Assembly: GCA_016222825.1 (NCBI GenBank)
Contig: JACRQF010000010.1
Coordinates: 620,001-684,000 of the forward strand
From: Verrucomicrobiota bacterium
GTDB lineage: Bacteria > Verrucomicrobiota > Verrucomicrobiia > CAIQCK01
DNA: 64,000 nucleotides
Direction of reading: 5' to 3'
The notes under the pieces are model-generated. The model was not told the origin of the DNA and did not search any database. It saw nothing but the letters and a program-made list of their open reading frames with translations. How positions within the stretch are numbered: the first letter of the stretch is position 1; each line of letters begins with the position of its first letter. The position numbers and the translations under genes were made by a program. This document shows, piece after piece, positions 12,545-42,656 of the stretch.

Positions 12545-14830
12545 TTACTTGCGAGCTTCGGTGCCCGCTTCGATGCCGGCGTCAATGAACTGGCCGCCTC
12601 TCTCTTGGTGACAGTGGACGGCAAGCACGTTGTCGCCTTCGCGCAGCGCCGCGTGTAACGCTTCGTTTAGCTCGGTGGAATAGCTGCCGACGAAGCCGCT
12701 GAACTCGGCGACTTTCCTGCCGTTCACATAAACCTCCGTGTCCTCGTCGTGATGGATGCGCAGGCCCGCCAACGCGATGTTGAGCTTCTCGATGCGGAAA
12801 TGACGTCGCAACCAGATGTCGCCGGTCTTCCACGTCGTGCCAATCACTGAGCCGGGCGTGCCGGTCGTCCCGAAACCGCCTTTGCCAGTCTGCCACGAGG
12901 CGTCGTCGAAACCGGGTTTGAACCAGCCGTCCGCCGGCTGCGTCGTCGTGAAACGCCATTCCTGCGCCCTCTGCTCGGAGGTCGGCACAAGCACGCTCCA
13001 CGTGACGCGCTGGACGCGCGGCGGCTGTGTCTCGTAAGCGGCGGGGCGGGCGTTGATCTTGTGCAGCAGCGCGGGGTCGTATTTCGGCTTGCGGTCGTAG
13101 AAATAGACGCCGTTCTGCTCCTGCTCGATGTCGGTGAGTTGCGTGTAGCAGAAGCCGAAGATGTTCGGGTTGTCGAGCTGCGCGTCGGTCAGGCCCTTGT
13201 AACGCGCGAGGAACTCCTTCAGGTCGAGGCTCTCGCCGCCGTAGCCCCAGCCTGCGCCGGTGTCGCGGTCGGTCTTCACGCGAATGCCGCCGTATTCGCT
13301 CACAAAATACGGCTGGCCCCGATATCGGCTCCGCGGGTCGCCGGGGTGATTGTGCCACGGGTTCTGGCCGGTCAGCCCGAACATCGCGTAGCGCGCCGCG
13401 AACCGCTTCGGGTCGCCTGTGTAATCGTGGCAGTCGAACACATCGGTCTCCGGCAGGAAATGCGTGTAGCCGCTGGAGTCGAGCAACGGCCGCGTCGGGT
13501 CCATCGTCTGCGTCGCCGCCAGCAACGTCTCGGTGAGCGCGATGGTTTCGTTCGTGCCGGTCTCGTTGAGCGGGCACCAGCCGATGATCGAGGGATGGTT
13601 CCGGTCGCGCCGCAACGCCTCGCGCCACTCATCCACAAACGCCACCATCGCCTCCGGCTTGCTGAGGTTGATGCCCCAGCTCGGAAACTCGCCCCAGACG
13701 ATGTAGCCGAGCTTGTCGGCCCAGTAGAGCAGCCGCGGCTCAAACACCTTCTGGTGGAGCCGCGCGCCGTTGAAACCCGCCGCCATGGACAGCTCGATGT
13801 CGCGCCGCAGCGCGTCATCGCTCGGCGCGGTGCAGATGCCGTCGGGATAGAAGCCTTGGTCGAGGATGAGGCGCTGGAAGACCGGCTTGTCGTTGATGAG
13901 GAAACGGTTTCCCTCGATGGTGATCTTGCGCAAGCCAAAGTAGCTGCGCACTGAGTCAATCACCTTGCCGCCACGCAGCGTCTCGACAGTGAGGTCATAG
14001 AGGAACGGCTTGCCGGGATGCCACGCCACGACCTTGCTGAGCTTCAGCACCGCCAGCGTATTCCGCCACGCCGCCGGCACCGTTTCCTCGCCAACCTTCT
14101 TGCCGTCGGCGAACGCGCGCAGCCGGACGGTCACGCCCTTCATCGGTCCATCCATGTTGCCTTGGAACATCACGCGCCCGCCCTCGAGATCGGGCACCAG
14201 CGAAAACTCCCGCAGATACGTCGCCCCCGCCGCTTCAAGCCACACCGTCTGCCAGATTCCTGTCGTTCGCGTATAGACGCAGCCCTTGCTGACCGTGTGC
14301 GTCTGCTTGCCCGCTGGCTGCAAGCCGGAGCGAATCTCATCAATCGCGTGAACCACGAGTTCATTGTCGCCGTCGCGCACCGTGTCAGTGATCTCCAGCG
14401 CAAACGGCACGTAGCCGCCACGGTGCTCGCCGACGAACTGGCCGTTGAGCCAGACACGCCCACGATAATCCACCGCGCCGAAGTTCAGCAGCAGCCGCTG
14501 ACCTCGCATAGCCGCCGGCACCTGGAACGAGCGCCGATACCAGACATGCGGCATGTAGTTCGTCGCCATCGCCAGTCCCGAAAGCTGGCTCTCCGGGCAG
14601 AACGGCACGATGATCTTCCGCGCGAGGTCGCGGCCGGAGATCAACCCTCGCGTCTCCCCATCGCCCTTTTCGTCCACCTCGAACTGCCACTCACCGTTGA
14701 GGTTCAACCACGAGTCGCGCTGCAAGTCGGGCCGGGGATGTTCCGGCCGCGGCACGTCAGCGCTCACGCTCGCCACGAAACACAGCAATAGGCAGCCGAT
14801 ACGGAATGATATTCTAAATAGAGTGTTCAT
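12545..14830 (-). CDS. Secreted glycoside hydrolase family 2 enzyme
   Basis: 761 aa with signal peptide (ISFRIGCLLLCFVASVSA). Domain order: sugar-binding jelly roll (about 30-190; FQVPAAMRGQRLLLNFGAVD), immunoglobulin-like domain (about 195-300), TIM barrel (about 305-600) and a C-terminal beta domain (about 615-755). Both catalytic glutamates are visible: acid/base in PLNETGTN (about 421) and nucleophile in FVSEYGG (about 511). GH2 covers beta-galactosidase, beta-glucuronidase, beta-mannosidase and others; the sequence does not settle which. Start is 13 bp after the stop of the six-hairpin glycosidase gene, so the two form an operon segment. Confidence 0.93.
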   Translation of the reverse strand: MNTLFRISFRIGCLLLCFVASVSADVPRPEHPRPDLQRDSWLNLNGEWQFEVDEKGDGETRGLISGRDLARKIIVPFCPESQLSGLAMATNYMPHVWYRRSFQVPAAMRGQRLLLNFGAVDYRGRVWLNGQFVGEHRGGYVPFALEITDTVRDGDNELVVHAIDEIRSGLQPAGKQTHTVSKGCVYTRTTGIWQTVWLEAAGATYLREFSLVPDLEGGRVMFQGNMDGPMKGVTVRLRAFADGKKVGEETVPAAWRNTLAVLKLSKVVAWHPGKPFLYDLTVETLRGGKVIDSVRSYFGLRKITIEGNRFLINDKPVFQRLILDQGFYPDGICTAPSDDALRRDIELSMAAGFNGARLHQKVFEPRLLYWADKLGYIVWGEFPSWGINLSKPEAMVAFVDEWREALRRDRNHPSIIGWCPLNETGTNETIALTETLLAATQTMDPTRPLLDSSGYTHFLPETDVFDCHDYTGDPKRFAARYAMFGLTGQNPWHNHPGDPRSRYRGQPYFVSEYGGIRVKTDRDTGAGWGYGGESLDLKEFLARYKGLTDAQLDNPNIFGFCYTQLTDIEQEQNGVYFYDRKPKYDPALLHKINARPAAYETQPPRVQRVTWSVLVPTSEQRAQEWRFTTTQPADGWFKPGFDDASWQTGKGGFGTTGTPGSVIGTTWKTGDIWLRRHFRIEKLNIALAGLRIHHDEDTEVYVNGRKVAEFSGFVGSYSTELNEALHAALREGDNVLAVHCHQERGGQFIDAGIEAGTEARK

Positions 14831-17563: not shown

Positions 17564-18604
17564 TCACACCGCGCCGCGATAGACTGCCAGAACATTCTCC
17601 GGGGGCACATCGGGCTGGAACAGGTGCGCCGGGCCGAGGATGTAGCCGCCGCCTTTGCCGAGAACCTCGCAATAGCGCCGCACCTCGGCCTCGACTTCGG
17701 CCGGAGTCGCCTTCGGCAACAGATTCTGCATGTCAATGCCTCCGTGGAAACAGAGCTTGTCGCCAAACTCGCGCTTCAAGCTCTCTGGCTGCATCTCGAT
17801 GCACGTCGGCTGAATTGGGTCGAGCACGTCCACGCCGCATTCGATCAACTCCGGAATGAACAGCCGGATCGTTCCGCAACTATGATACAGCGCTTTTCCG
17901 CCAAGGCTGTGAATCAACGCCGTCATCTGCTTCAGATACGGCGCAATGAACTCGCGGAACATCCCCGTCGAGATGAGCGGGCCGCGCTGCGTGCCGAGGT
18001 CGCTGATGACCAGATAGAGGTCAATCCGTCCGTTCGTGATCTCCGCCGCGCGCGTGTAATCCTCCAGATAGAAATCGGTGAACTTGCGCGAGAGGAAATG
18101 CGCCCACTCCGGCTGCTCTGCCATGTCCATGAACATGCCTTCCCATCCGCGCACAAGCGCCGCCCGCTGCCAGATGTCGGCAAAGCCGTAGAGCAGCGCG
18201 TGATTTTCGTAACGCGCGCACTGAGCCTTGAGTTGCGAACGGTCGAGACAATCCGGCGACGGCCAGGGGAACGACTCCAGATCCGCGAAGCTGCTCGCCT
18301 CCGCCAGCGCGCCCTTGGCGTCCTCGCGCATCGGGCCCCACGGCGTCTTGTTATAGATGTAGCGTTCGCCCCAGAAGTTCTGGAACAAGCCGCTGCTCAC
18401 CTCACGCTCCGCCGGCGCGGGTGCTTCCAGATGCCGCACGTCCACGCCGAAAGCTTCAAGTAGCTTGTCCTTGTCGGTGTGCCCGACGTAATCGAACAGC
18501 CGCCTCATCGTCGGCGGCTCCGCCCAAAACTCGCGGGGCGTGCGGTCGGGTTGCTCGTGCCGCAATGCGGCCAGAACTCTTTCGCGTGAAGTCATTGCGC
18601 TCAT
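17564..18604 (-). CDS. URO-D-fold methyltransferase-like protein (HSCG type)
   Basis: 346-aa cytoplasmic protein of the uroporphyrinogen decarboxylase fold. It lacks the N-terminal arginine-rich substrate loop of true HemE and instead has HSCG at about 240 and a downstream FHGGID, the arrangement of zinc-dependent corrinoid/thiol methyltransferases such as MtaA. Heme synthesis is therefore unlikely. Its position, between an HpaI-type aldolase (73 bp upstream) and glycosidases (14 bp downstream), links it to sugar breakdown; one possibility is methyl transfer from a methylated sugar or related compound. ATG at 18595 is an alternative start. Confidence 0.85.
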   Translation of the reverse strand: MSAMTSRERVLAALRHEQPDRTPREFWAEPPTMRRLFDYVGHTDKDKLLEAFGVDVRHLEAPAPAEREVSSGLFQNFWGERYIYNKTPWGPMREDAKGALAEASSFADLESFPWPSPDCLDRSQLKAQCARYENHALLYGFADIWQRAALVRGWEGMFMDMAEQPEWAHFLSRKFTDFYLEDYTRAAEITNGRIDLYLVISDLGTQRGPLISTGMFREFIAPYLKQMTALIHSLGGKALYHSCGTIRLFIPELIECGVDVLDPIQPTCIEMQPESLKREFGDKLCFHGGIDMQNLLPKATPAEVEAEVRRYCEVLGKGGGYILGPAHLFQPDVPPENVLAVYRGAV

Positions 18605-18677: not shown

Positions 18678-19430
18678 TTATACGCCGAAGCCTTCCACGA
18701 GCTTCCGATAACCGTTCCGCAGGATGGCGAGGTCGGAGTCCATAGCCAGCCAATCAAAACCTTGTTTGCGAAGTGCGGGCAGTTCAGCGGCGTCGCGGGT
18801 GAGAATGCCGCACGATTTGCCGGCTTCGGCGGCGGCGGTGATGACGTGGTCCAGACAGACAGCGTAATCACGCTTCGCCAGCTTCGGCCGCGCCTTCAGA
18901 TCGAAGTTCAAATCCGACGGACCAACAAAGAGAACATCCACGCCGTCCACACAGGCAATCTTGCCCGCGTTCTCTACGGCTTCGATTGTCTCGATCTGCG
19001 CGATGATGATTGGCTCAGGCAGTTTGCTTTCCGCCGGCGGGCGCAGGCCGTAGCCGTAGGCGCGCACGGTGCGCGAAAAACCACGCCGGCCGCGCGGAGG
19101 ATAGTGCGCCGCCTGCACGCAAGCCTCCGCTTCGGCAACCGTCGAGACGTGGGGAATCATCACGCCGTCCGCTCCCCAGTCGAGCACACGCGCGATGAGG
19201 TCCGGATGCGGCGCGCCGACGCGGACGATAGCCGCCGCGCCGGAACTGCGGATGGCTTGGAGTTGCGGCAGCAACGCGGCTTCGAAACCGCAGCCGTGTT
19301 CGAGATCGAACAACAACCAGTCGAAGCCGCTCTCCGCCGCGAGTTCGGCAATGACCGGCGAGCCAATGGAGAGCCACGTGCCGAGGCGCGGCTTCTTCTC
19401 ACGAAGTTGGACGGGCGATTTCATGTTCAT
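18678..19430 (-). CDS. HpcH/HpaI-family class II aldolase
   Basis: 250-aa cytoplasmic enzyme of the HpcH/HpaI aldolase/citrate lyase family, which cleaves 2-keto-3-deoxy acids to pyruvate (or a homologue) and an aldehyde using a divalent metal. Motifs: GTWLSIGSP at the start, FDWLLFDLEHG (metal/substrate region), GADGVMIPHVST and YPPRGRRGFSRTVRA (substrate-binding arginine). Its ATG overlaps the stop of the transporter-kinase fusion gene (ATGA), a sign of translational coupling. This makes the fusion's transported or phosphorylated compound a candidate precursor of the aldolase substrate. Confidence 0.9.
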   Translation of the reverse strand: MNMKSPVQLREKKPRLGTWLSIGSPVIAELAAESGFDWLLFDLEHGCGFEAALLPQLQAIRSSGAAAIVRVGAPHPDLIARVLDWGADGVMIPHVSTVAEAEACVQAAHYPPRGRRGFSRTVRAYGYGLRPPAESKLPEPIIIAQIETIEAVENAGKIACVDGVDVLFVGPSDLNFDLKARPKLAKRDYAVCLDHVITAAAEAGKSCGILTRDAAELPALRKQGFDWLAMDSDLAILRNGYRKLVEGFGV

Positions 19431-21442
19431 AGCGTCTCAATCTCCGAATCGTTGCGCAATCCGTTTAGCGCAGCGGCGAGGCGTTGGCGAGTGAATGCTT
19501 TCAGGTCCGCGCCCGTGCCGCCCGCGCCGATAAGGAAGAACCGGTCGGTGCGCTCAAAATAGCCCGCGCCGACGCGGATGACCGACTTGACGATCATGTT
19601 GCGCAGCAGGTGCAGCCAGAAACGGCGGCGATGGTCCGGCGGCAGCGGGCGGACGCTGCGGTAGCCGTCGAAGGCGCGCTGGAGAAACACCGCGTCGTGG
19701 AAACACCCGAGCAACGAGAGGTCGTCCATCGGATCGCCGCTGATTGCGTCGTCCCAGTCAATGAACGCGGCGATATGCTTCTCGGTGCCGAGGATGTTCC
19801 AAAGCGCGAGGTCCTTGTGGACAAGGCAGCCCTTCTCCAGCGCGAGCAGGCCGCGATGACGCTCGATCTCGGACTCTATTTCGTCGGCCTCGTGCTGCGT
19901 CAGAAAGCTGTGCTCAACGAGGAATCGCAGGTGCCGGTCGAGATGAAGGCGGAAGTAGTCTTCGTAGCGGCGATGGAAACCTTCCAACCGGTTCTCGCGA
20001 CGCAGAATCGCCGGGTCGAACGGGCCGAAGCCGGGCGGCTGAATCGCCTGCCAGTGCGCCACGGCCGTGCCGATATCGCCAGCCACGCTCGCCACGTCGA
20101 GCCGGCCCGCTTTGAAATGCTGGTTCAAGTCGGGGCAAGGGATGTTCTCCAACAATTGCCACGCGAACGGCACGCGCTGGCGGCTCGCGTCCACTCCGTG
20201 AACTTGTGGCGCTGGCAGACCGAGCGCGCGCACTTCGGCGAGCACGCGCGATTCAACCTCGATGTAGTCGTCGCGCTCCGGACCGTCCTCGATACGCACG
20301 AATAACTCTTTCCCGTCCACCGCTGCCAGCCACGTGATGTGATTGCCTTGTCCCGCCGCCGGACGGAGCGACACAGGTTTGCCGGGCGAGCGTTCCCGCA
20401 GAACATCGGCAAGTTGGCTCTCGCTTGCGCCGCGGCGGAGGTTCTCGTCCGTGCCGTGAAACGCCGCGGGCCGGTCGCACTTCCAGTAGTAGATGGAGCG
20501 GCGTGGATGCGGCGTCGCTGGCGGCCGCGCGCGCCAATAACTCGCCACGATGCTGCCGACGATGTTCTGCACGATGGCGCTGAACACCGCCGGCACGGCT
20601 GCCATCGGCTGTGTCGGGAAATTCTGCCGCGCCAGCACCGCCGCCAAGCCGCCGTTCTGCATGCCGACTTCAATGGAGATTGTGCGCGCCACATCTTCGG
20701 CATAGCCCAGCGTCTTCGCCACCGCGTAGCCGACACCGAAGCCCATCACGTGAAGCAGCACCGCGGCGAGCGTCAATTTGCCAGCGTTGGCGAGGATGGC
20801 GTCGGCGTTGGCCGAGACAATGCCGCCAGTGATGAACATGATCGCCAGCACCGACACCACTGGGCCGAACCGCGAGACCTTTGCGACCTGTTTCGGAAAC
20901 TTCCAGTTGCAGAACACGCCGAGCAAGACAGGCGCGACGGCGACTTGGAGCGTGGAGAGACAGAGCTTCACGGCGTCCACCGGCACGTAAGCGCCGGCGA
21001 GTGTTTTGCACCAGAGCGGCGTCATGACAAACGCCAGCAACGTCGAGGTCAGCGTGACCATCACGGCGAGCGCGACGTTGGCGCGGGCGAGGAAGCTGAT
21101 GACGTTCGAGGCCGTGCCCGACGGACAACTCGCCACGAGGATCAAGCCAACGGCGAAGCCCGCGTCGAGCTTGAGCGTGCGCGCAAGCAACCAACCCGAC
21201 AGTGGCATGATGGTGTAGTGCGCGAGGAAGCCAAGCGCGAGCGAGCCGGGCATCCGAAAGAGCCGCCGGAAATCCTCCACCGTGAGCGTAAAGCCCATGC
21301 CAAGCATGACGAGCGTCAGTGCCCAGACAACCCATTGGCCGCGGAACCAGATAAACGTAACCGGCCACAGCAGCGCGACCACGGAGACGCCGATGAGCCA
21401 GAGCAAGTAGAGGTCGGTGAACCAGGAGCGGGAGTGTTTCAT
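19427..21442 (-). CDS. BASS-family transporter fused to APH-type kinase
   Basis: 671-aa inner-membrane fusion. Residues about 10-310 are a bile acid:sodium symporter (SBF/BASS) domain with about nine or ten membrane segments and the family signature CPSGTASNVISFLARAN near 110; BASS proteins move organic acids with Na+. Residues about 345-665 are an aminoglycoside phosphotransferase/choline-kinase-like domain with the catalytic loop HKDLALWN and the metal-binding IDWDDAISGD. The two are in one frame with an uninterrupted linker (RRSIYYWKCDRPAAFHG). The arrangement predicts import followed by phosphorylation of a small (possibly sugar-acid) compound. It starts 13 bp after a DUF4838 gene and overlaps the aldolase gene by 4 bp. 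The fusion is unusual; each half is individually clear. Confidence 0.9.
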   Translation of the reverse strand: MKHSRSWFTDLYLLWLIGVSVVALLWPVTFIWFRGQWVVWALTLVMLGMGFTLTVEDFRRLFRMPGSLALGFLAHYTIMPLSGWLLARTLKLDAGFAVGLILVASCPSGTASNVISFLARANVALAVMVTLTSTLLAFVMTPLWCKTLAGAYVPVDAVKLCLSTLQVAVAPVLLGVFCNWKFPKQVAKVSRFGPVVSVLAIMFITGGIVSANADAILANAGKLTLAAVLLHVMGFGVGYAVAKTLGYAEDVARTISIEVGMQNGGLAAVLARQNFPTQPMAAVPAVFSAIVQNIVGSIVASYWRARPPATPHPRRSIYYWKCDRPAAFHGTDENLRRGASESQLADVLRERSPGKPVSLRPAAGQGNHITWLAAVDGKELFVRIEDGPERDDYIEVESRVLAEVRALGLPAPQVHGVDASRQRVPFAWQLLENIPCPDLNQHFKAGRLDVASVAGDIGTAVAHWQAIQPPGFGPFDPAILRRENRLEGFHRRYEDYFRLHLDRHLRFLVEHSFLTQHEADEIESEIERHRGLLALEKGCLVHKDLALWNILGTEKHIAAFIDWDDAISGDPMDDLSLLGCFHDAVFLQRAFDGYRSVRPLPPDHRRRFWLHLLRNMIVKSVIRVGAGYFERTDRFFLIGAGGTGADLKAFTRQRLAAALNGLRNDSEIETL

Positions 21443-21455
21443 GGATGGTCATCAG

Positions 21456-23891
21456 TCATTTCGCGCGGCCATACAGGTTTCCCATCTTGGTTGGCGCGTT
21501 GATGAAGCTGCCGGTTCCCGTGGGAGAAAGAGCATAAGCCTCCTCTTCTCCGCCAGCCTGGCGTTGACGAAACACGTTCACACCCCACGGATAGGATTTG
21601 GTTGGCATCTCGCCCAAGCCCTTGATCTTGATCTCCACCGTCCAGCGGTCGGACAGCTTGCGCACGGCCACGCGTTCGGCGCTCCATGCCTCCGGCACGT
21701 CCGCCACGTTTGGAGTCACGCAGGTGTCGCGAACGGCGCCGTTGGGATTTACCACGACGACGGCGCGATAGCCGGCGGGCGTTTCGAGGTGAAGTTCGAC
21801 GTTGTCGTCGCTGTAGATGGCGTGGTCGTCCTTCGCCGAGGCTGGCGTGCTCGCGCGGAGGCGATTCATCCGGCGCTCGTGACAGACGATCCCGACGAGT
21901 AGAGAGGAATCCGGCAGCCAACGGAACGCGGCGCTGGTTGTGTTGATGTCGGGGTAAACACCAGTGGCGCAATCTCTCAACCACATCTTCTCGGCGGCGA
22001 GCTGCCCGGTCCAGAACGGCTTCGCCAAGTCGCCGTCCACCTGCGGCGAAACGTCTCTCGGAAACAGGCGGACATACGGGCCGGTGCGCTTCAACTCGCT
22101 GAACAGCTTCTTCAGCGGCGCAATTTCGTCAGCGATGAACTGCACGCGTTTGCCATAGATGCCGTCGCCAGCCCTGGCTTTCGCGCGGTCGAGAATCTCG
22201 AAGTATTTCGGCACGTCAGCGGGCTTGAGAAAGCCGCCGGTCGCGGTGATCTCGCGAACTTCGGGCCGCATCCAAACCGCCTCGGCATACTCAAAGAACT
22301 CGCGCATCTCCTTGCTCGCCGGTCCGTAGAACTTCTCGAAGTAGTCCGCCAGCGTCGCCTGCACATCGAGGTTCCTGTCCCATGTGAACTTCGCGTGAAG
22401 ATAAATCATCAGGTGATTGATGCCCGGAAAACCGACGACCAGGCCATGCTGGCGCGTGGTGCTCCATGAGAGTTCCGCGTAGATCGTCCGGCAACGCTCC
22501 GGCAGCGTCCTGAAGTTCTTCTCCATCTGCGCCGTGAAGATCGCCGGCACCGGCACCAGCGAGCGGCGCGGATAATGTGACAGATAATAGTCGTAGATGA
22601 AGATGTCGCTGTGCGGCGCTTTCGCGAGCCATTCCTTGCGCCTGGCTAGGTCGTCGCCGAACTCCGGCAACGTGCTGTTCTGGCTTAAGTTGACGGCGAT
22701 CTCCGCCGGAATCGTCGCGATGAGCTTCGGCGGGTTCTTCGCACAACCGTAGCTGGAGGCGCAGAACTTGAGACCCGGCCGCTGCTGGCTCACGCGATTC
22801 ACCACGTTGAGCACGAAATCCCACTTGTAGTCGGCGAAACGTCCCCGGTGGCCTTCCTCTTTCTTGTCCCATCCGGCGGCCACGTCGCGATCGTCCATCA
22901 CAACCCAACCGTCCGGCTGGCCTATCGGCAGATAGGGCACTTCGGGAAACGCATCGTGAAACTTGATCAAATACTCCGCCAGTTCCTCGCGCAACTGCGG
23001 GCTGGAGAGTCGCGGCAAGTGGCGCGGCCCGTGATCGTATCGCCGCCGTCCGGTTTCGATCGGCTTGCCGCCGGCAAAACCGAACAGTTCCGGCCGGTCA
23101 TGCTGACATTCTGTAATCAGCTCCGATGAGTGCGACGGAAACGGATCGAACACGCCGCCCTGCCGCAGATATTTGTGCCAGAGGAACTCCGGGATGTTTT
23201 TGCCGAAGCCGACGAGCAGCAGGAGCCGGCACGCCAGAAACGGCTCTCGCTTCAAAACCATCGGTGTCAGTTTGATGTCCCGCTTTTCCGGAATGACCAG
23301 GCCTATCTCCTCGACCGGCATGAACCATCTCATGCCGAGTTGCTCCAGAAACTCATAGACGGCATACAGCGTCCCGTTGGCGTCCTGAACATGAAAGCCA
23401 AGCTCAGGGCTGAAATTCCGCGGGTCGCGGATGATGTAAGGATAGTCCCAAGGCTTGCCGGCGAGTTTCTGCCAGTTCTTCAGCACGCTTGCCCCCTGGC
23501 CGAACCTCGTGTTGTCGCGCGGAATTGCCGACCGGCACTGATCGCGCCCCAGCAACGCGACGTGCCTGTCGCCAACCACGATCTTGAAACCGTCGTTGCG
23601 CACGTCGTCGAGCGTGATCCCCAGCTTCCGAGTGTGTTCGCAGGCGCCCACGTAAATCGGCGTCGCCACGCCCGGTTGAACGACGATCGGCAATTCCGCG
23701 CCGGACATCTTTTTCAAATACTTCTGCAGCTCACAGCCAGCCGTTTTCACCGACGGATCCGCGTCCGCAGCAACCACAATCTCCGCCAGTGGCCGTCCAT
23801 CGCGCACGAGTTCCACCGCCCGAACCGACAGCGGAAGAGACGAACCGAGCAGCAACATCAACAGCCATCGGTGCATGACGACATTCCTCAT
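21456..23891 (-). CDS. Secreted DUF4838 protein with CBM9-like C terminus
   Basis: 811 aa; signal peptide MHRWLLMLLLGSSLPLSVRA after a short MRNVV lead. An N-terminal GH20/GH67-like alpha-beta domain (about 25-130; ELQKYLKKMSGAELPIV) precedes the DUF4838 barrel (about 240-560), with LPIGQPDGWVVMDDRD where catalytic acids would lie. The last 190 residues resemble family 9 carbohydrate-binding/DOMON-like modules (FWTGQLAAEKMW, DDNVELHLETPAGYRAVVV). DUF4838 proteins are probably glycosidases related to alpha-glucuronidases; no activity can be assigned. Start overlaps the stop of the TPR gene (ATGA), so translation is coupled. Confidence 0.85.
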   Translation of the reverse strand: MRNVVMHRWLLMLLLGSSLPLSVRAVELVRDGRPLAEIVVAADADPSVKTAGCELQKYLKKMSGAELPIVVQPGVATPIYVGACEHTRKLGITLDDVRNDGFKIVVGDRHVALLGRDQCRSAIPRDNTRFGQGASVLKNWQKLAGKPWDYPYIIRDPRNFSPELGFHVQDANGTLYAVYEFLEQLGMRWFMPVEEIGLVIPEKRDIKLTPMVLKREPFLACRLLLLVGFGKNIPEFLWHKYLRQGGVFDPFPSHSSELITECQHDRPELFGFAGGKPIETGRRRYDHGPRHLPRLSSPQLREELAEYLIKFHDAFPEVPYLPIGQPDGWVVMDDRDVAAGWDKKEEGHRGRFADYKWDFVLNVVNRVSQQRPGLKFCASSYGCAKNPPKLIATIPAEIAVNLSQNSTLPEFGDDLARRKEWLAKAPHSDIFIYDYYLSHYPRRSLVPVPAIFTAQMEKNFRTLPERCRTIYAELSWSTTRQHGLVVGFPGINHLMIYLHAKFTWDRNLDVQATLADYFEKFYGPASKEMREFFEYAEAVWMRPEVREITATGGFLKPADVPKYFEILDRAKARAGDGIYGKRVQFIADEIAPLKKLFSELKRTGPYVRLFPRDVSPQVDGDLAKPFWTGQLAAEKMWLRDCATGVYPDINTTSAAFRWLPDSSLLVGIVCHERRMNRLRASTPASAKDDHAIYSDDNVELHLETPAGYRAVVVVNPNGAVRDTCVTPNVADVPEAWSAERVAVRKLSDRWTVEIKIKGLGEMPTKSYPWGVNVFRQRQAGGEEEAYALSPTGTGSFINAPTKMGNLYGRAK

Positions 23892-24772
23892 CGCAGCTTC
23901 TCCAGCGCGGCCTGAATGCTGCCGCGCAAATCGTCCGGCGCGCTTTGCAGGGCCTTGTTGTAGTTCTCGATTGCCTCGGCTTTCCTGCCCTGCGCGGCGT
24001 GAATCTCGGCACGGACGATGAAAGGACGAGCGTGCCAGTAGCCCGAAATTGCCGGCGTGATGCCATCCATCTCGCGCAGGGCTTCCTTGTATTTCCCTTG
24101 CTTGGCCAGAATGCGCGCAGCGCTGATAATCGCGTCGTTGATGATGCCGTAGCCTTTCAGCGACGAGATGCCCTTCATCCGCCGATAGACGGTCAGCGCG
24201 CGCCCGTCTTCGCCGGACTCGATCAAGACGGATCCTGCCAAGTTCAGGACGTGCGTCTGCTTGTTCGGGGTCGTGGCGAATTCCTCCGCCTTCGCGAAAT
24301 CCTTCAGTGCCTCGGCGAACTGCCGCAGACTGCGAAATGCCTGCCCTCGCGCCATCAGCGCGTCATAGACGTGAACATCCGACCACTCCGTCAGGTTCTC
24401 GTCTTTGAAGCACTTCACCAATTCCTGCGGTTGTCGCTGCGCGAGCAGGAGGTTCATCCGGCACAACTTCTTCGTGCTTTCGCGCGGAATCTGCGCCAGC
24501 AACTCCTCCGCTTTGGCAAGTTGTTTGGCGCTGATCGCGCTCAGAACCGCATAGCGCAACGAAACCGATTTCGAGCCAGCCGTCGGCGCTCTTACGGCAA
24601 GCGCCGCGAACTGGACCGAAGCCTCCGCGTGTTTGCTTTCGCCGAAGAGCTTCAGCGCGCTCTGAAACTCATCAGTGAAATCCGCCATGACCGCCGCGCA
24701 CGCGCACAACAACGACAACGTGGCGCAGCAAGCCCGCCAGAACCACACACGTCTTTCATTCATGGCGTTCAT
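23888..24772 (-). CDS. Exported TPR-repeat protein
   Basis: 294 aa with signal peptide (FWRACCATLSLLCACAAVMA). About five or six tetratricopeptide helix pairs run through the protein, for example FQSALKLFGESKHAEASVQF, AKAEELLAQIPRES, RSLRQFAEALKDFAKAEE and GRKAEAIENYNKALQSAPDD. TPR proteins mediate protein-protein contacts. Sitting between two DUF4838 enzymes, with 7 bp to the upstream and a 4-bp overlap with the downstream gene, it probably assembles or docks those enzymes in the periplasm, but this is inference. Confidence 0.85.
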   Translation of the reverse strand: MNAMNERRVWFWRACCATLSLLCACAAVMADFTDEFQSALKLFGESKHAEASVQFAALAVRAPTAGSKSVSLRYAVLSAISAKQLAKAEELLAQIPRESTKKLCRMNLLLAQRQPQELVKCFKDENLTEWSDVHVYDALMARGQAFRSLRQFAEALKDFAKAEEFATTPNKQTHVLNLAGSVLIESGEDGRALTVYRRMKGISSLKGYGIINDAIISAARILAKQGKYKEALREMDGITPAISGYWHARPFIVRAEIHAAQGRKAEAIENYNKALQSAPDDLRGSIQAALEKLR

Positions 24773-24779
24773 TCTGTTC

Positions 24780-26714
24780 TCACCGCTTCAACTCGTAATC
24801 CGGGTGCAGCGTCTTCATGTGCGCCCTGTCGGGGCTGAAACCGTTCCAGTTCATCGTGGTCGGGTTCGCTTTGCAGAGTTGCTTGAGCTTGTCCCAGTTG
24901 GTGCGCGCTGTCTTGTCGGCAGCGGCGTCTGTCCGCTTGCTCTTTTTCAACCTCTCCATCGCGAGGCGAATCTCCGTGAGCCGCCGGGTGTATTCGAGGC
25001 CGGCGCGCACGAGGGCCACGCGCTTGCGAAACACCTCCTGTTGGCCGGCGAGCGCCGCGTCCGCGCGATCGAGAATGCCGCCAGCTTTCGCGAAGAACGC
25101 CGCGTCGTAAACTGAAGCTTCGGGCGCGTCCTTGTCCGCTCGTTGGTGATAGGCGTCCTCCATCAGCTTCCAATACGACTTGATATCGCTTGCCGCCGGC
25201 CCAAAACCACGGCGATAGTAGTCCTCCATCATCGCCTGCGCGTCGCGGTTCGGGTTCCACGCGAGTTGCGCCATCGCGTAGTAAGCCGGTCCTTGCGTGG
25301 CCCAGTTCTCCCAGATGCAGGCGAGAAAGATGCCCATGCATTTGTTTCGCGCAACGAACTGGAAGTCTTCGATGATCTGCCGTAACGGCACTTCCGGCAA
25401 CCCTTGCCACCAACGCCCGTGTAGATTCGGCCGCCAGTAGATCTGCCGCGAGACGGCGGCCCAGCCTCGATGCCAGCGCAACGCCTCCTCACGAGCCTGC
25501 CCCGAAAACAAAAGGAAGTTTGTCACACACTGGACGATCACGTTGTCGTCGGGCACCGCCTTCACCGGCGGCGTGCGCCAGTTGCCGTAGGCCTGCGTGG
25601 TCACATACAACTCGCGGCCGGGATAGCGCGCCTTGAGCATGCGCGCGACGGTGTTGGCAAACGTGATGTTGCGGTCAGAGAGCGACACGTCCTTCTTCGA
25701 CGCGCCTTTCCAGACGAACAGCATCTTCTCGCCGTCAGGATGGTCCCACGCGCGGCACTTCTCACAGATGCAATGCCCCGCCAACGTGCCATCGTTGATG
25801 GCGGCGTTGAACACCGTCTGCGCCGGATTCTCCCTCAACTGTTCCTCCACGTCGGCGAGCCAGCGCTCCCAGACGGCGGGATTGGAGTGGCAAATCTTGA
25901 CGCTGTCCGGTTTGAGATCGGGGTGATAGGTGCGCGTGCCGTCGGGCTGCAGCGCGAAGTATTCCGGATGCGTCTCGTGAAAACGCTTCCACCAGTCCTC
26001 AAAGCCCGCGCCGCTCAACCTCATCAACTGATGCCGCTGGCCGCAGGAATCCAGTTGCACGCGTTGCAGCCGCGTCCAGTCCTGCGAAATCCCCCGGCCA
26101 TCCGCCGGCGCCGATGGAAACAAGATGCCGCTGCGCCAACGAATCTGCGGATGATAACGATAGTCGAACGGCGCAAACGCAATCGTGTCGCGCTTGAGAA
26201 CATCTTCGCCGGTCTCGCCGGGCCAGAGCCAGCGCACACCGAGATAATCCTGCAGGAACGTATAAACGGCGTTGACCGTGCCGTATTCCTCCTGCCAGCC
26301 GTTGATGACTCTCCCATGGCGCCCCGCGACCGTCAGCCGCTTCGGGTCCCACACATCACGGCCCGCGATGACCAGATGGTTCTCGTTGGCAGCGACGAGA
26401 ATCTCCTCCGGATGCTTGAAGCCGAAACTCAGCCGCGGAAACAGCTCTTTTGGTTTCGGCTGACAACCGATCCAGATCGCGTGCGCCGGCACAGGCTTCG
26501 GTTCGCCCTCTATGACCTGCAGCTTCGCGCCGCTCATCTTCTCAATGTAGCCGGCCAACTCATCCGCCGCGCGTCGCGTCATCGGCGGCGCGTCCTGGGC
26601 TACGATGATAGGCGCTTTGCTCACGCCCTTCTCCACCAACACCAACTCCGCCACCCGCGCCTCGGCTCCCAAGGCCGTCGCCACCACAGCAGCCCATATC
26701 AGGAACTTTTTCAT
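24780..26714 (-). CDS. Secreted DUF4838 protein
   Basis: 644 aa with signal peptide (MKKFLIWAAVVATALGAEA). Domain order is GH20/GH67-like N domain (about 25-130, AADELAGYIEKMSGAKLQVI) and DUF4838 (about 220-480, with NDGTLAGHCICEKCRAWDHP and IYWRPNLHGRWWQGLP). The CxxC pair CICEKC is typical of this family. No C-terminal CBM9-like domain, unlike the homologue at 21456-23891. The start overlaps the end of the sialidase-like gene by 4 bp. Likely an extracytoplasmic glycosidase of unknown specificity; the presence of two different DUF4838 enzymes suggests two linkages or chain ends. Confidence 0.87.
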   Translation of the reverse strand: MKKFLIWAAVVATALGAEARVAELVLVEKGVSKAPIIVAQDAPPMTRRAADELAGYIEKMSGAKLQVIEGEPKPVPAHAIWIGCQPKPKELFPRLSFGFKHPEEILVAANENHLVIAGRDVWDPKRLTVAGRHGRVINGWQEEYGTVNAVYTFLQDYLGVRWLWPGETGEDVLKRDTIAFAPFDYRYHPQIRWRSGILFPSAPADGRGISQDWTRLQRVQLDSCGQRHQLMRLSGAGFEDWWKRFHETHPEYFALQPDGTRTYHPDLKPDSVKICHSNPAVWERWLADVEEQLRENPAQTVFNAAINDGTLAGHCICEKCRAWDHPDGEKMLFVWKGASKKDVSLSDRNITFANTVARMLKARYPGRELYVTTQAYGNWRTPPVKAVPDDNVIVQCVTNFLLFSGQAREEALRWHRGWAAVSRQIYWRPNLHGRWWQGLPEVPLRQIIEDFQFVARNKCMGIFLACIWENWATQGPAYYAMAQLAWNPNRDAQAMMEDYYRRGFGPAASDIKSYWKLMEDAYHQRADKDAPEASVYDAAFFAKAGGILDRADAALAGQQEVFRKRVALVRAGLEYTRRLTEIRLAMERLKKSKRTDAAADKTARTNWDKLKQLCKANPTTMNWNGFSPDRAHMKTLHPDYELKR

Positions 26715-29700
26715 TTACCACCTGCGTCGAGAGTGCTCTTGAAACCCGGCCCGCCAGCACCGACATAGCCGTGGCTCGCGCCGTTCTTGTCGTCGGTGAT
26801 CCAGAACGAGTAGAGCGAGCCATTCGTCAGCGTGAACCGCAGCTTCACGTTCTTGTTGCTGGCGCGCGCCAGGCTCTCGACGCCGCGCCAGATCACGCGC
26901 TGGCGCGTGCTGTCGCCGCGAAGCGGGATGCACTTCTCTGCCGTGAACGGGCCGTAGTTCTTGTTTTCGAGAGTCAGGACCTCCACGCGCAGTTCGCCGC
27001 GCGGTGCGTCGAGGTTCACGAAGAGATGTTCGCCGCTGAACTTGATCGGGCGCGTCGTCAGCGTCGCGGGCTTGTCGCCGGCATCCATCGAGGCGAAACC
27101 GTCGCGGCGCAGCGTCGCCATGCCGATGCTGCCTCCGGTATACATGCCGCGCTTGCCGCTCGGCGCGATGCCGGAGAACGCCGTGTAAGGGAACCAGAGC
27201 TTGTCGTCCATCACGAGGCAGACGCCCGCGGTGCCGTGCACGTAGGCGCGGTCCCAATCGCCTTCCTTGCGCGTGCCGGCGATGAACGCGCGCCGGTCGG
27301 GCCGATGCCAGTGGAACCCATCGCGGCTGAAGCCGAGGCAAAGATCGGTGAGCTTGGGAAACTTGCCTTCATCACAGAGGCGGTTGTTCGGGCCGCGATG
27401 GATGTAGAACTGGCCGAGCAACACGCTCTCGTAGGCCACGGCGTTGAGGCTGTAGAGCTGCGTCGGTTCGCCCGCGCCCGGATAGCGACCTTCCGGCTCT
27501 GGCTTGTCGAGGCGATCGGCGTTGCCCCAATACACAGCCTTGCTCCAGTCGGCGCCCTTGAGAAAGTCCGCGCTCTCACTGTAGTAGCGGCAACGCCCGC
27601 GCTGAGGGAAGCCCTGCTTGATGCTGAAGACCCAGACGTTACGGAACGGGTTGAAGAAAAACGAGCAGTAGTCGCCCGCCGCGCCTGTCGGCACGGGCTG
27701 CGACCACTCGCGGCCGTCGGCCGAGGTCTTCAGCAGGTGCCCGCCCCAGCAGGTCATGAACTTGATCCGCTCCTCTGGTCGCTTTGTGTTGATGTCGAGC
27801 CAGACACAGTTGTCATGCCCCGCATCCTTGCCCGGCGGCAACAAGACATCTCCCCGCGTCCAGTGCAACAAGTCGCGGCTCGTGGCGAGCGCCAGCCCGC
27901 CGCGCCAGCCGGCCGTGTAGAACATCTTGAACACGCCGTCGCGCGGGTCGAAAAACACGCCACCGTGACCGAGGTAACAGGTCGCCTCCTGCCCGCGCTC
28001 GCCCGTCGAAGACTCACCAAGTTCATTCTTCGTCTCCGCCTTGAACACTGGATTCGCCTGATGTTTCTGCGCTTGGTGGAACGTCCGCTTCATGTCGGTC
28101 TTCTCGATGAGGAAATCGTCCACGAAGAGCTGCCGGCCGACATCAATCGGGATCGTCTTCGGCATGCGATAACGCACCGGCATCGGGTCGGTGGAAGCGG
28201 GGTCGAGATGGCGCGGCGGCCATTCGTAGGGAAGTTCGATGCCGTTGTAGAGAATGGGCTTCGGGCCGGTCGCTTTGTTCGCGAGCATCAGGAGCTTCGC
28301 GTCCTTGGAGACGATCTTGCCGGCCAGCACGTCCTCCTCGCGGAACTTTGCCAGCAGAATCTCCGCGTCGCTGTGGCGGTTCAAATCGTAGAGAATGTGG
28401 ATGAGGCCGTCGGGCGCTTGGAAGCCGTCGGGATAGGAGACAGACGAGCGTTCATCCAGCAGCAGGCCGCCTTTCCATGTCTTGCCTTCGTCGTCGGAGA
28501 GATACGCCGACATGTGCGAGCGCTTCTCGATCCGCTCGGTCGGTGGGCCGTTTTTCACGAGCAGGATTCTCCCCGACGCGAGCCGTCGCAGGAAGAAGCG
28601 CGCGTTGACGTTCTTCACGGACGCGGCGGGCTTCGGCTCGCTCCAAGTCTTGCCGTAGTCGGCGGAGAAGCTTTCGTAGGGGTTGCCGTTGGTCCGCGCC
28701 AGCATCCACAACCGCCCGTCGCGCAACTCCACCATCATATGCTCGTCGAAGTTCCAGTCGGGGAACTTCACGCTGCCGCGCGGCTTCCATGATTTGCCTT
28801 GGTCGGTTGAGGCAAAGACCCACGCTGTCTTATCCGCCCACTTCGAGACAGGCAGGAGCCAGTCTCCGTTCTTGAGGATGGTCGGCTTGTTCAGCGTGCA
28901 GCCCTCGTCTGAGAAACACACCGCCTTCGACCAGACCGGTGCGTCCGAGTCAGGATTGTCGCAGCGGATGAACCAATCGGCTCTCGGCCCGTGAACGCCG
29001 ACGACCGCTTGATCGAAGAACAACCAAAGCCGGCCGAGCGGATCGGTCCACAGATTGCCGACGAGCGCGCCGCGCTGCCGCTTGCCGGTCGGGTCGAGCG
29101 CGCCGACGACGAGGCGCGCCTTCGACCACTTGGCGCCGCCGTCGTCGCTCGTGGCAAGGATGAAGTAACCGTCCGCTTTGTCACCCGTGCCCGTCCAGCA
29201 ACCCCAGATGCGCCCCTTTGGCGTGCGGTCCATGCCGATGATCATCGCGCCGGGCCGCGCGTCGTCCTGAAACTCCGGCCCCGGCTTCGTGATGATGACC
29301 GGCGGCTCGGTCCGCGCGTCCACAGGCGCTTGCGGGTCGAAGACTTTCGCTTCCGCGCTATTGCCTAGGATGAGCAGCACCATCTTCTTGAAGCGCAGCC
29401 GCTCGCCGGGCTTCACGTCTTTGCGGTAGAGGCTCACGCGGTTGATTTCGCCGGGGAACAGTTGCACCTCGGGCACCTCGATCTTCGCGAAGCCCGCTTG
29501 CTTCAACGCCGCTTCCTGGCTGGCGGCCTTCGGGCGCGCGGTCGGCGTGAGCGCGTAGAGCGTGCCGGCCTTGGTGACGACCGCTTCGATTTTCTCGATG
29601 CTCGTCCGCAGGAACAGCAGGCCGCGCACCTGCTCCGGCATCTCTTGAATCACATACTCGCGGTCGGTAAAGAGCTTCACGCCCTTCTTCATCAACGCAG

Positions 29701-30937
29701 GCTCCTCCGGCGGCGGTGGCGGCAGCGGCTTGCGCTTCTTGCCGGCTTGCGACGGGAACGCGCCCACGTCCTCCAGCTTGCCGAACATGATGCGGTCGGT
29801 GCTGCCTTTGTGGCCCTGCGTGACGGTCAGCCAGATCACGCCGTCGTGCTCGTGGAAGGTCGGGTATTGGAAGGAGTCCGGAGACTCGAAGCGATATTTG
29901 CACTCCCATTTCTTGCCGTCGCGGGAGATCTCCACGTTGAACACGCTGCGCCGGCCGCCGTGGATGCTCGTGGCCTCCTGCCAGCCGAGATAATAAACAC
30001 CGCCAAACTTGTCGAACGTCGGCTTCGAGTTCGTGCCGTTGGAGACGGAGCGAAGCTCTTTGCCCGCGGTCCATTTCCTGCCGTCCTTGCTCGTGGTGAA
30101 ATGGTAGTTGCCGGCATCGTTGCGGCAGATCGCCATCCACGTGCCGTCCGGCAGGCGGTTCACGGCAGACTCGCTGAGTTGCTGCGACTGCGGTTCGTTG
30201 TAGTGGCCGACGATCTCAAACGTCGCCAAGTCGTCGTGCAGCAGCGCCAAAGCGTTTTGCTTGCCGGGGAAGTTGTTGATCGCCACATAACGCCGTCCAT
30301 CGAACTCTTTGAACGAATCGAAGATGTAAAGGCCGTGATTCACCGGCGGCTTGGTGAAGCCCTGCGCCGCCGCGTCGGCGTGGAAGTGCTGCGGCTCCAT
30401 GTCGAACACGCCGGCAGCCGTCTTGAGCTTCGCTTTGTGGATGCGGCTCTCAAAACTCATCGTGCGCAAATCAAAGTCGCGATACCAAGTGAGCGCCTGC
30501 CCCTTCGCCGGCTGACTGGCAAAGTAGCAGCGCAAAGTGTGCTCGCCCGACCTGATGATGCGCGGCACAAAGCACATGCCCTCCGGCAGCGTCGCGTTCT
30601 CAAACACCTGCTCCGACTTCGCCATCGGGATGACCTTCTCGACAGCGAGCGTCTTCAGATTCACCACCGTCAGCACACAATACTGGTGCCGCCCCGCTCC
30701 GTGCCCCGGCTGCACGTCGTTGTCGTGCTCCACGATGAACGCGCGCCCACCCACGCACACGAACTCCGCGTCATGCGCGCCCTTCGCCTGCGGCGCAGTG
30801 ACCTTGACGAACCGCTCCATCACCAAGTCCCCCGCCAGCGCGGGGTCCCAGCCCGGCGGGACAAGGGGTTCAGCATGTGTGACGATACCGGGTGCAAGGC
30901 CAAGAATGAGACAAACGACTGTCGCGTGAAGTTTCAT
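26711..30937 (-). CDS. Giant secreted triple-module sialidase/GH32-43-like protein
   Basis: 1,408 aa; start at 30937 gives the signal peptide MKLHATVVCLILGLAPGIV. Three modules: a sialidase-like propeller (about 20-405, one Asp-box SKDGRKW); a proline-rich linker (KPLPPPPPEEP) and small beta domain; a second BNR/sialidase propeller (about 535-930) with four Asp-boxes (SDDGGAKW, STDQGKSW, SADYGKTW, SDDEGKTW); and a five-bladed propeller of GH32/GH43 type (about 975-1390) that opens with QLFVDDFLIE. The last module is homologous to the gene at 60986-62917 (QLFIDDYLIE). Sialidase-fold enzymes also act on uronates and rhamnosides, so sialic acid is not implied. Preceded by the ricin-esterase gene (37 bp) and overlaps the DUF4838 gene by 4 bp. 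Confidence 0.83.
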   Translation of the reverse strand: MKLHATVVCLILGLAPGIVTHAEPLVPPGWDPALAGDLVMERFVKVTAPQAKGAHDAEFVCVGGRAFIVEHDNDVQPGHGAGRHQYCVLTVVNLKTLAVEKVIPMAKSEQVFENATLPEGMCFVPRIIRSGEHTLRCYFASQPAKGQALTWYRDFDLRTMSFESRIHKAKLKTAAGVFDMEPQHFHADAAAQGFTKPPVNHGLYIFDSFKEFDGRRYVAINNFPGKQNALALLHDDLATFEIVGHYNEPQSQQLSESAVNRLPDGTWMAICRNDAGNYHFTTSKDGRKWTAGKELRSVSNGTNSKPTFDKFGGVYYLGWQEATSIHGGRRSVFNVEISRDGKKWECKYRFESPDSFQYPTFHEHDGVIWLTVTQGHKGSTDRIMFGKLEDVGAFPSQAGKKRKPLPPPPPEEPALMKKGVKLFTDREYVIQEMPEQVRGLLFLRTSIEKIEAVVTKAGTLYALTPTARPKAASQEAALKQAGFAKIEVPEVQLFPGEINRVSLYRKDVKPGERLRFKKMVLLILGNSAEAKVFDPQAPVDARTEPPVIITKPGPEFQDDARPGAMIIGMDRTPKGRIWGCWTGTGDKADGYFILATSDDGGAKWSKARLVVGALDPTGKRQRGALVGNLWTDPLGRLWLFFDQAVVGVHGPRADWFIRCDNPDSDAPVWSKAVCFSDEGCTLNKPTILKNGDWLLPVSKWADKTAWVFASTDQGKSWKPRGSVKFPDWNFDEHMMVELRDGRLWMLARTNGNPYESFSADYGKTWSEPKPAASVKNVNARFFLRRLASGRILLVKNGPPTERIEKRSHMSAYLSDDEGKTWKGGLLLDERSSVSYPDGFQAPDGLIHILYDLNRHSDAEILLAKFREEDVLAGKIVSKDAKLLMLANKATGPKPILYNGIELPYEWPPRHLDPASTDPMPVRYRMPKTIPIDVGRQLFVDDFLIEKTDMKRTFHQAQKHQANPVFKAETKNELGESSTGERGQEATCYLGHGGVFFDPRDGVFKMFYTAGWRGGLALATSRDLLHWTRGDVLLPPGKDAGHDNCVWLDINTKRPEERIKFMTCWGGHLLKTSADGREWSQPVPTGAAGDYCSFFFNPFRNVWVFSIKQGFPQRGRCRYYSESADFLKGADWSKAVYWGNADRLDKPEPEGRYPGAGEPTQLYSLNAVAYESVLLGQFYIHRGPNNRLCDEGKFPKLTDLCLGFSRDGFHWHRPDRRAFIAGTRKEGDWDRAYVHGTAGVCLVMDDKLWFPYTAFSGIAPSGKRGMYTGGSIGMATLRRDGFASMDAGDKPATLTTRPIKFSGEHLFVNLDAPRGELRVEVLTLENKNYGPFTAEKCIPLRGDSTRQRVIWRGVESLARASNKNVKLRFTLTNGSLYSFWITDDKNGASHGYVGAGGPGFKSTLDAGGK

Positions 30938-30974
30938 AAAGTCATCAAGCCAGAGCGCAAAGATCGGTTTCAGC

Positions 30975-33185
30975 TCACAACTTCGTCCCGTTGACCTTCG
31001 CCCACGGTGTGAACGCGCCCATCGCGTGGTGCTGGACTTTGCGTTTCCAGATTCTGTTGCCGCATAAAGCGAAGAGCGTGTCCTTGTCCTTTCCGCCGAG
31101 ACACACACCCGTCACGCGCGCTCGGTCGGGCACGGGAAGGATGACCTGCGTGGGGCCGTCGTCGGCGCTGATCTGGACGCCGCTGCGCGTGGCGATGAAT
31201 TGCCTGCCTTCGAGCGAGTAGCAGACGCACTCCGCGCCCGCGTCGTCGTCCCAGTCGGCGACGTAGTGATGGAAGAACCGCTCCTTGTTCGCGAGCGTGC
31301 CGTCGGCGTTGATCTGGTAGCTGTAAACCCACTTCGAGTGGCCTTCGACAACGGAGAGCAGCCATTGGTCGGGGCGATACGCCATGCCGGTGGCGAACTT
31401 GATGCCGGAGTCCACGCGCGTCTTCTTGCCGTCCTTGATGAACCACACGCTGCCGCCGTTGTTCGGCTTCTTGTCGTCGTTCATGGTGACGTAGAGCGAG
31501 CCGTCTGGCCGCGCGAGAATCGAGTGGCCGAGGATGCCGTCGAGCACGACGCTCCCCTTTCCCGCCGCGTCGTAGCGCATGAGTTTTCCGGACTTTTCTG
31601 AGATGGTGAACAGCGTGCCGTCCGCGCCGACGGTGACGCAGTGGGCTAGGCCCGCGTCGGCGACGAACTCAGTCACCTTTCCGTCGAGACCGATGCGGTG
31701 AATCTTGTTTGCCGATGTGTCGGCAAAGAACACCTCGCCGTTCGCGTTGCACGCCGGGCCGCGCGTGCTCTTGAAGCCCTCGGCCACCAGTTGCCAGCCT
31801 TCGCCGGGGATGATGATCTCCTGCGCGCGCGGCGCGCTCGGGCCGGCCTTCACCCGCTCGGGCCAACCGCGCCAGAGATACGCCATCGCCTCCTGCCAGT
31901 GCTCCGCGTAGCCCTGCACGTGGCGGCCCTCGATGACGCGGAACTGGTAGTCGTAGCCGGAGAACTTCAGCGCCTTGTCCATCTCCTGGTCGAGCAGGAA
32001 CCAATCGCCCGCGGCGTTCTCCATGTCGTGCGTGGCCGTGGTGAGGAAGGCGCGGATCGGTTTCGCCTCGAACTTGCGCACCATCGTCGGGAACTCATGC
32101 CCGCCGCGGAACGCGACCCAACTCCCGCTCGCCGCATACACGCGGCTGAACGCCTCGGGCCGATTCCACGCCGCCGTGAACGCCGCGATGCCGCCGCTGC
32201 TGCCGCCGGAGATGCAGCGGTCGTTGCCGTCGGTGGAGAGCTTCAAGCTGAACTCCTTCGCAACGAACGGCAGCAACTCCTCGACGAGGAATCGCACATT
32301 GTTGTCGTTGACAGCATCGTATTCGAAGCAACGGTTGCGCCGGCCCATCGTGCCCTTCATCGGCGCGGGCAGTTCGCCGGGCCGCACGAACACGCCGACG
32401 GTGACCGGCATCTCCTTCGTCGCGATCATCGTCTCCATCAACGTCTTCTCGCGCGGGTTGTAGCCGTCGGTCTTCACGTAAACGCACGCGCTCTTCTTGC
32501 CGTCGTATTGCGCGGGGATAAAGACCGTCACATCGCGCACCGTGCCGGGGAATACCTTGCTCTCGGTAAATTTGAACTGCTGGATGGCACCAGGAGGAAT
32601 GTCCTCCGACTTGATCGCGGGCGGCTCGTATTTTTTCGCCTCATCCGCCGTCGCCGCCGCGACACCGGTGCCGGCGAGCGGTTTGATGAACCACTGCAAA
32701 TGCGTGTCGTTCTCCCGCCGCGTCCAGAGATCAATCTTCGCGCCAGGATTCGGCTTGCCGCCGAGGTGATCGAGGCCCAGCGCGGGCGCGTGCTTCGGCG
32801 CGAGGGTGTAGCTGCCATTCTCAAGCTTCGTCAGCGTCCACAACTGCCACGGCTGGCCGCCATCCTTCTCCAGCACGATCTGCGCCCCCTGCTTCGCGCC
32901 TCCTTTGGCCGCCGCGAGCACAAGCGAGGGATCGTGCGCCGGCCTGATCGCGAAGAAGTTTTCCTCGCGCGGCGTAACAATCCATCTCTGGTTCGCACCG
33001 CCCGCGGGTTTGTTGATCGAAACAATCGTGCCCTCCGCGCGCCGCGAGTCCACCGCCTCCAGCACAAACGCCGGCGCGCTTACCGGCACGATTTTGTAAA
33101 CGCCCCAGTCCTCGGCAGCGCGCGTGATTGTGAACGCGCTGAGGGCGAGCGCGATGATGAGTGGAGTCAAACGATGGGTTTTCAT
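30975..33185 (-). CDS. Secreted ricin-lectin/esterase/SMP-30 fusion protein
   Basis: 736 aa with signal peptide (MKTHRLTPLIIALALSAFTI). Residues about 25-165 form a ricin-type beta-trefoil with QxW-like repeats (NQRWIVTP, WQLWTLTK, HLQWFIKP). Residues about 195-455 are a Fes/EstA-type esterase with nucleophile motif SGGSSGG and GRHVQGYAEHW supplying the His. Residues about 460-730 are an SMP-30/gluconolactonase-like six-bladed propeller (FADTSANKIHRIGLDGKV, GHSILARPDGSLYVT). Likely binds a glycan, removes ester groups and may open a lactone. It starts 54 bp after the sulfatase stop and ends 37 bp before the sialidase-like gene. Confidence 0.85.
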   Translation of the reverse strand: MKTHRLTPLIIALALSAFTITRAAEDWGVYKIVPVSAPAFVLEAVDSRRAEGTIVSINKPAGGANQRWIVTPREENFFAIRPAHDPSLVLAAAKGGAKQGAQIVLEKDGGQPWQLWTLTKLENGSYTLAPKHAPALGLDHLGGKPNPGAKIDLWTRRENDTHLQWFIKPLAGTGVAAATADEAKKYEPPAIKSEDIPPGAIQQFKFTESKVFPGTVRDVTVFIPAQYDGKKSACVYVKTDGYNPREKTLMETMIATKEMPVTVGVFVRPGELPAPMKGTMGRRNRCFEYDAVNDNNVRFLVEELLPFVAKEFSLKLSTDGNDRCISGGSSGGIAAFTAAWNRPEAFSRVYAASGSWVAFRGGHEFPTMVRKFEAKPIRAFLTTATHDMENAAGDWFLLDQEMDKALKFSGYDYQFRVIEGRHVQGYAEHWQEAMAYLWRGWPERVKAGPSAPRAQEIIIPGEGWQLVAEGFKSTRGPACNANGEVFFADTSANKIHRIGLDGKVTEFVADAGLAHCVTVGADGTLFTISEKSGKLMRYDAAGKGSVVLDGILGHSILARPDGSLYVTMNDDKKPNNGGSVWFIKDGKKTRVDSGIKFATGMAYRPDQWLLSVVEGHSKWVYSYQINADGTLANKERFFHHYVADWDDDAGAECVCYSLEGRQFIATRSGVQISADDGPTQVILPVPDRARVTGVCLGGKDKDTLFALCGNRIWKRKVQHHAMGAFTPWAKVNGTKL

Positions 33186-34604: not shown

Positions 34605-34606
34605 GA

Positions 34607-36061: not shown

Positions 36062-36084
36062 GGAGGTCCTTTCAACCGGTCTGT

Positions 36085-42643: not shown

Positions 42644-42656
42644 CGCGCGAGCCGGG

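Follow-up and report, generated by a model that had tools for sequence, protein, structure and literature searches.

Group translocation by PTS enzyme II ties uptake to phosphorylation inside one membrane protein. Transporter–histidine kinase transceptors also exist, represented by CbrA, in which a carrier and a signalling histidine kinase share a single polypeptide (PMC13022988). Among BASS carriers, the closest described relatives of the protein considered here are ASBT_NM and PanS (PDB 3zuy, 8oyg; NCBIfam NF047939). ASBT_NM binds the hydroxy acid pantoate: the carboxylate contacts the main-chain nitrogens of Thr112 and Ala113, the 2-hydroxyl contacts Gly267 and Asn265, and the distal hydroxyl contacts His294 and Asn295 (PMC10645422). 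The remaining reference systems are the APH-type kinases, such as the hygromycin kinase APH(4)-Ia and fructosamine-3-kinase, and the class II pyruvate aldolases GarL and HpaI (1dxe, 2v5j).

In the window, i.e., the whole 64,000-nucleotide stretch of Verrucomicrobiota DNA under analysis, one gene encodes both a BASS carrier and an APH-type kinase. Unlike PTS enzyme II, its product contains no PTS domains, and, in contrast to CbrA, its kinase is of the small-molecule type and is encoded beside metabolic genes. The gene and its parts are the following:

19427–21442, minus strand: fused BASS carrier–APH kinase gene, 671 aa (single ORF; Pfam SBF and APH; AlphaFold2)
20525–21442, minus strand: BASS carrier domain, residues 1–306 (Pfam, phmmer, Foldseek, conservation, residue map)
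20504–20524, minus strand: linker, residues 307–313 (PPATPHP), without a start codon (codon listing of the junction)
19430–20503, minus strand: APH-type kinase domain, residues 314–671, N-terminal signature IYYWKCDRPAAFHG (Pfam APH; invariant residues; Foldseek)
19796–19819, minus strand: kinase catalytic loop HKDLALWN, residues 542–549 (H542, D544 and N549 invariant in 42 homologues)
19748–19762, minus strand: kinase metal-binding motif IDWDD, residues 561–565 (D562, D564 and D565 invariant in 42 homologues)

The initial annotation had described one unbroken frame of 671 codons with two complete domains, and both statements hold. The frame, for which the initial annotation named no strand, lies on the minus strand, opens with ATG and contains no internal stop. 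Pfam SBF (PF01758) matches residues 41–218 over profile positions 3–190 of 191 (E 4.9e-42; 144 bits against a cut-off of 24.3), and Pfam APH (PF01636) matches residues 362–594 over positions 6–229 of 239 (E 2.1e-17; 64.1 bits against 23.2); both matches lie above the Pfam cut-offs and cover nearly the full profiles, with the catalytic residues present. The AlphaFold2 model of the whole fused protein has a mean pLDDT of 93.7 and a pTM of 0.81.

The carrier half is closely related to ASBT_NM, as is apparent from phmmer (E 3.8e-60 against 3zuy), from Foldseek (TM-score 0.94, normalised by target) and from the 39% identity shared with the ASBT_NM/PanS group. The AlphaFold2 model and Foldseek indicate the same ten-helix elevator fold with cross-over helices. 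The cross-over motifs are shared as well: S112, N113 and E258–N263, equivalent to S114, N115 and E260–N265 of ASBT_NM, are conserved among 22 module carriers, and the residue map shows the equivalents of S114, N115, T132, E260 and Q264 to be kept in the window. Gln77 and Ser128 of ASBT_NM, whose side chains line its sodium sites, correspond to His75 and Ala126, and for this reason Na+ coupling of the window carrier is putative rather than established. At the pantoate site, the equivalents of Thr112, Ala113, Asn265, Gly267 and Asn295 are retained, while His294, the contact of the far hydroxyl, is replaced by Gln292, so that the substrate is probably not pantoate. Since the carrier also misses the PanS NCBIfam equivalog cut-off (230.5 bits vs 400), pantoate was rejected; the BASS NCBIfam cut-offs are likewise not reached. 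A hydroxy or keto acid is a plausible substrate.

Regarding orientation, 15 Lys/Arg residues fall in loops assigned to the inside and 6 in those assigned to the outside. These charges favour a cytoplasmic location of both ends of the BASS domain, and the kinase is therefore placed in the cytoplasm. This addresses the side of the membrane on which the kinase lies, for which a structure prediction had been proposed in the initial annotation.

The kinase half shares its fold, the HxD...N motif and the metal-binding Asp motifs with APH(4)-Ia (Foldseek TM-score 0.74, normalised by target) and with fructosamine-3-kinase, which was also matched. In contrast to the solved APH-type kinases, with which identity is about 17%, the window family has its own invariant N-terminal YWK-D element (Y319, W320, K321 and D323, which, like R314, are invariant in 42 homologues) and is either fused to a carrier or encoded beside one. 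Loss of catalytic residues in homologues, which the initial annotation had regarded as evidence against a functional fusion, is not seen. ATP-dependent phosphorylation of a small molecule is the putative activity of this domain.

The fused gene is accompanied by a series of closely spaced genes:

26711–31108, minus strand: long BNR protein, 1465 aa, sialidase superfamily, conserved-module member (Pfam BNR_2; homologues in 31 of 43 kinase loci)
28229–29308, minus strand: middle BNR propeller domain, residues 601–960, sialidase fold (AlphaFold2 pLDDT 91.9, pTM 0.91; Foldseek)
24780–26714, minus strand: DUF4838 protein, 644 aa, same operon, outside the conserved core (Pfam; gene spacing)
23888–24772, minus strand: TPR protein, same operon, outside the conserved core (Pfam; gene spacing)
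21456–23891, minus strand: DUF4838 protein whose N-terminal part weakly matches GH67, in the same operon and 13 bp ahead of the fusion (Pfam; gene spacing)
18678–19430, minus strand: HpaI/GarL-type class II aldolase, 250 aa, overlapping the end of the fusion by 4 bp (Pfam HpcH_HpaI)
17564–18604, minus strand: URO-D family protein downstream of the aldolase, outside the conserved core (Pfam; gene spacing)

The genes from 31108 down to 18678 lie on one strand with tight spacing, an arrangement consistent with an operon. The aldolase (PF03328, 124.5 bits), whose position and 4-bp overlap had been read correctly in the initial annotation, has 2-dehydro-3-deoxygalactarate aldolase (1dxe) as its closest PDB chain. 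It belongs to the same fold family as GarL and HpaI and shares their catalytic residues H45, R70, D84, E147 and D173, which are invariant in 37 module aldolases. It differs from them in that it scores below the respective NCBIfam equivalog cut-offs (166.7 vs 406.75 and 164.3 vs 368.8) and that its gene is accompanied by a kinase gene but by no conserved dehydratase gene.

The BNR partner is a conserved-module member that was missing from the initial annotation. Nearly all of the top 50 Foldseek matches of its middle domain, including the best ones, are GH33 sialidases, one of them a KDNase, and in the profile alignment E789, R805, R863 and Y892 fall on catalytic sialidase positions. The protein belongs to the sialidase superfamily. 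However, the RIP arginine, the first of the sialidase triad, is replaced throughout the family in the same alignment; the GH33 sialidase class was rejected on this ground, and release of a sialic-type acid by the BNR protein is consequently not established.

Several further genes surround the module. A GH106 alpha-L-rhamnosidase, two sulfatases and a GH2 enzyme are encoded nearby on the minus strand (window 39875–42811, 33240–36421 and 12545–14830), which suggests a locus for a rhamnose-rich, possibly sulfated polysaccharide. Two URO-D family genes occur in this one carbohydrate locus (window 17564–18604 and 36085–37209). Elsewhere in the window, LpxC and FabA/FabZ-like domains are joined in one 459-aa protein (window 43437–44816), beside an LpxA-like acyltransferase (42657–43430).

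The distribution of the module was followed over about 43 loci with a window-type kinase, gathered from two collections. The conserved unit consists of the sialidase-like BNR protein, a carrier, the kinase and the HpaI aldolase. The neighbouring aldolase gene, a search for which had been suggested in the initial annotation, lies on the same strand at 38 of the 43 kinase loci, the BNR protein is found at 31 and a BASS carrier at 26. Among the five loci without an aldolase, one is cut by a contig end and one carries a truncated kinase. The kinase–aldolase linkage is kept in Verrucomicrobiota, Lentisphaerota, Kiritimatiellota, Bacteroidota and Planctomycetota; the Bacteroidota loci have a SusC/SusD pair ahead of the module genes. 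No widely conserved neighbour cluster of a dehydratase or dehydrogenase was formed, although annotation does not extend to every two-locus cluster. The loci with the most similar kinases (L005, L011 and L031; 72–80% identity) carry an MFS gene directly ahead of the kinase, in place of the BASS gene. For the L011 MFS protein, the best NCBIfam match is TIGR00893, a D-galactonate transporter subfamily (279 bits, short of the 395 cut-off). The substrate class is best indicated by this exchange of the BASS carrier for an unrelated MFS protein of apparent sugar-acid type.

Two loci show individual peculiarities. In Runella (L004:10724–13192), BNR_2 and alpha-L-fucosidase domains are joined in one protein near the module. 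In a Tannerellaceae MAG (L006:5788–6734), the BASS gene occupies two reading frames, pointing to a frameshift or a pseudogene.

The explanation considered reasonably probable is that a sugar acid is taken up and phosphorylated with ATP by an importer with an attached kinase, and that retro-aldol cleavage follows. The operon's sialidase-like BNR protein would most likely free a small carboxylate extracellularly, which the elevator-type BASS half would import. On the cytoplasmic side of the membrane, the kinase half would then phosphorylate the imported compound with ATP and thereby keep it inside; in a less likely variant, it would phosphorylate the aldehyde product. Cleavage by the HpaI-type aldolase would yield pyruvate together with an aldehyde or a phospho-aldose. 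Both the trapping step and the order of kinase and aldolase are putative. The substrate is probably a sugar acid, and because no dehydratase is conserved, a 2-keto-3-deoxy (ulosonic) acid would be likely; Kdo or rhamnogalacturonan-II, to which no result points specifically, may serve as a lead. The import–phosphorylation–cleavage module was already proposed in the initial annotation, and the pathway gains support from the sugar-acid-type MFS exchange, whereas the fused tether is rare and not required for it.

Indeed, the search for BASS and APH domains in one protein, also proposed there, yielded the window and locus L003, i.e., 2 of about 43 kinase loci. No further fusions were found in a phylum-wide draw of 388 genomes or in 193 genomes of a second class. 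Because the fused state is so rare, the tether appears dispensable for the pathway. Long ORFs in L005, L011, L016 and L031, considered as additional fusions, were rejected as other-frame readings over the upstream carrier gene (MFS in L005, L011 and L031; BASS in L016). About 20 further loci encode carrier and kinase as two neighbouring genes, which frequently overlap in an ATGA (L007, L008, L013 and L015), and in L030 the two genes share a frame with a single TGA between them. These arrangements offer an easy path to fusion, and the fused gene is a rare variant derived from a pair of genes that were already translationally coupled.

A single origin is rejected by the BASS halves of the window and L003, which fall in different supported clades and can be forced together only at a cost of 83 log-likelihood units (p-AU 3.2e-5), although moderate support (89/69) groups the two kinase halves together. 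Since the BASS halves reject common ancestry, the fusion probably arose twice, or one fused gene exchanged its carrier half. A different join is present in the same genus (G002, L002:1500–1720), where the first 59 carrier residues, 80% identical to those encoded in the window, run directly into the aldolase at about residue 20; this reflects either a deletion of the remaining carrier and the kinase or a misassembly. Immediately upstream in that locus comes the sialidase-like gene; the DUF4838 and TPR genes of the window are missing there.

The alternative that survives best, though still clearly on the doubtful side, is a neutral event in which read-through joined two coupled genes without gain in function, the halves working like separate proteins. 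Stop and start loss between the ATGA-overlapping genes seen in many relatives would suffice to fuse them, and the single TGA of L030 and the rarity of the fused state point the same way. Fusion in two carrier backgrounds, with both domains intact and a short linker, can be set against neutrality, which nevertheless survives all three observations. Neutrality can be compatible with the preferred uptake–phosphorylation–cleavage pathway, in which the tether may either help to retain the substrate or make no difference.

Somewhat less likely still is a kinase acting after the aldolase: the imported 2-keto-3-deoxy acid would be split into pyruvate and an aldehyde or aldose, which would then be phosphorylated, and the fusion would serve stoichiometry or co-expression instead of trapping. 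Characterised HpaI and GarL aldolases use unphosphorylated 2-keto-3-deoxy acids, and the gene neighbourhood fits this order equally well. However, both fusions join the kinase to the carrier and never to the aldolase, which suits a first cytoplasmic step at the membrane.

A stricter coupling, in which the inward gate of the BASS half serves as a docking site for the APH domain, which takes the substrate directly and so performs a PTS-independent group translocation with ATP, is improbable. Even less credence is given to a BASS half that acts as a sensor or anchor for the kinase and not as a working carrier. CbrA (PMC13022988) provides a precedent, and two sodium-site side chains differ; yet the kinase half is a small-molecule kinase rather than a histidine kinase, the substrate-site residues are kept, and the carrier can be a separate gene or an MFS replacement, which suits transport.

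The genuineness of the fused frame is best judged at the junction. Between residue 299, inside TM10 (the last TM helix), and residue 345, the codon listing shows a stretch of 46 codons with no in-frame ATG, GTG or TTG, and the kinase half thus has no start codon of its own. The separate kinases of relatives start a few to about 20 codons ahead of the IYYWKCDRP motif; a single indel joining two intact genes would be expected to leave such an in-frame start near the junction, and it is absent here. Frame continuity in an independent assembly, called for in the initial annotation, is provided by L003, which comes from another study: it is 66% identical, likewise encodes both domains in one frame, and has a longer linker that also contains no start codon. 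A frameshift is rejected and an assembly error unlikely on these two grounds, and an assembly or indel artefact in general retains a very small probability, although the source assembly is unfinished (27 contigs), the other two frames are also stop-free near the junction, so that an indel would show no stop, and a large deletion occurs at the same place in G002: the gene, at 639,430–641,442 of contig C1 and the sole match within its own genome, sits inside a large contig, remote from its ends.

Each component of the uptake–phosphorylation–cleavage module comes from a known superfamily. In the literature searched, outside which most subscription journals lie, no match was found for a BASS–kinase fusion or for this gene cluster, and the fusion and the conserved module are undescribed there. 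The fusion points to an undescribed catabolic module shared by five or more groups of bacteria degrading complex polysaccharides, and it offers a concrete, testable substrate class for two families of unassigned function, one of kinases and one of aldolases. Furthermore, it represents a natural construct with which to ask whether uptake by a carrier becomes faster or more secure when a kinase is tethered to it.
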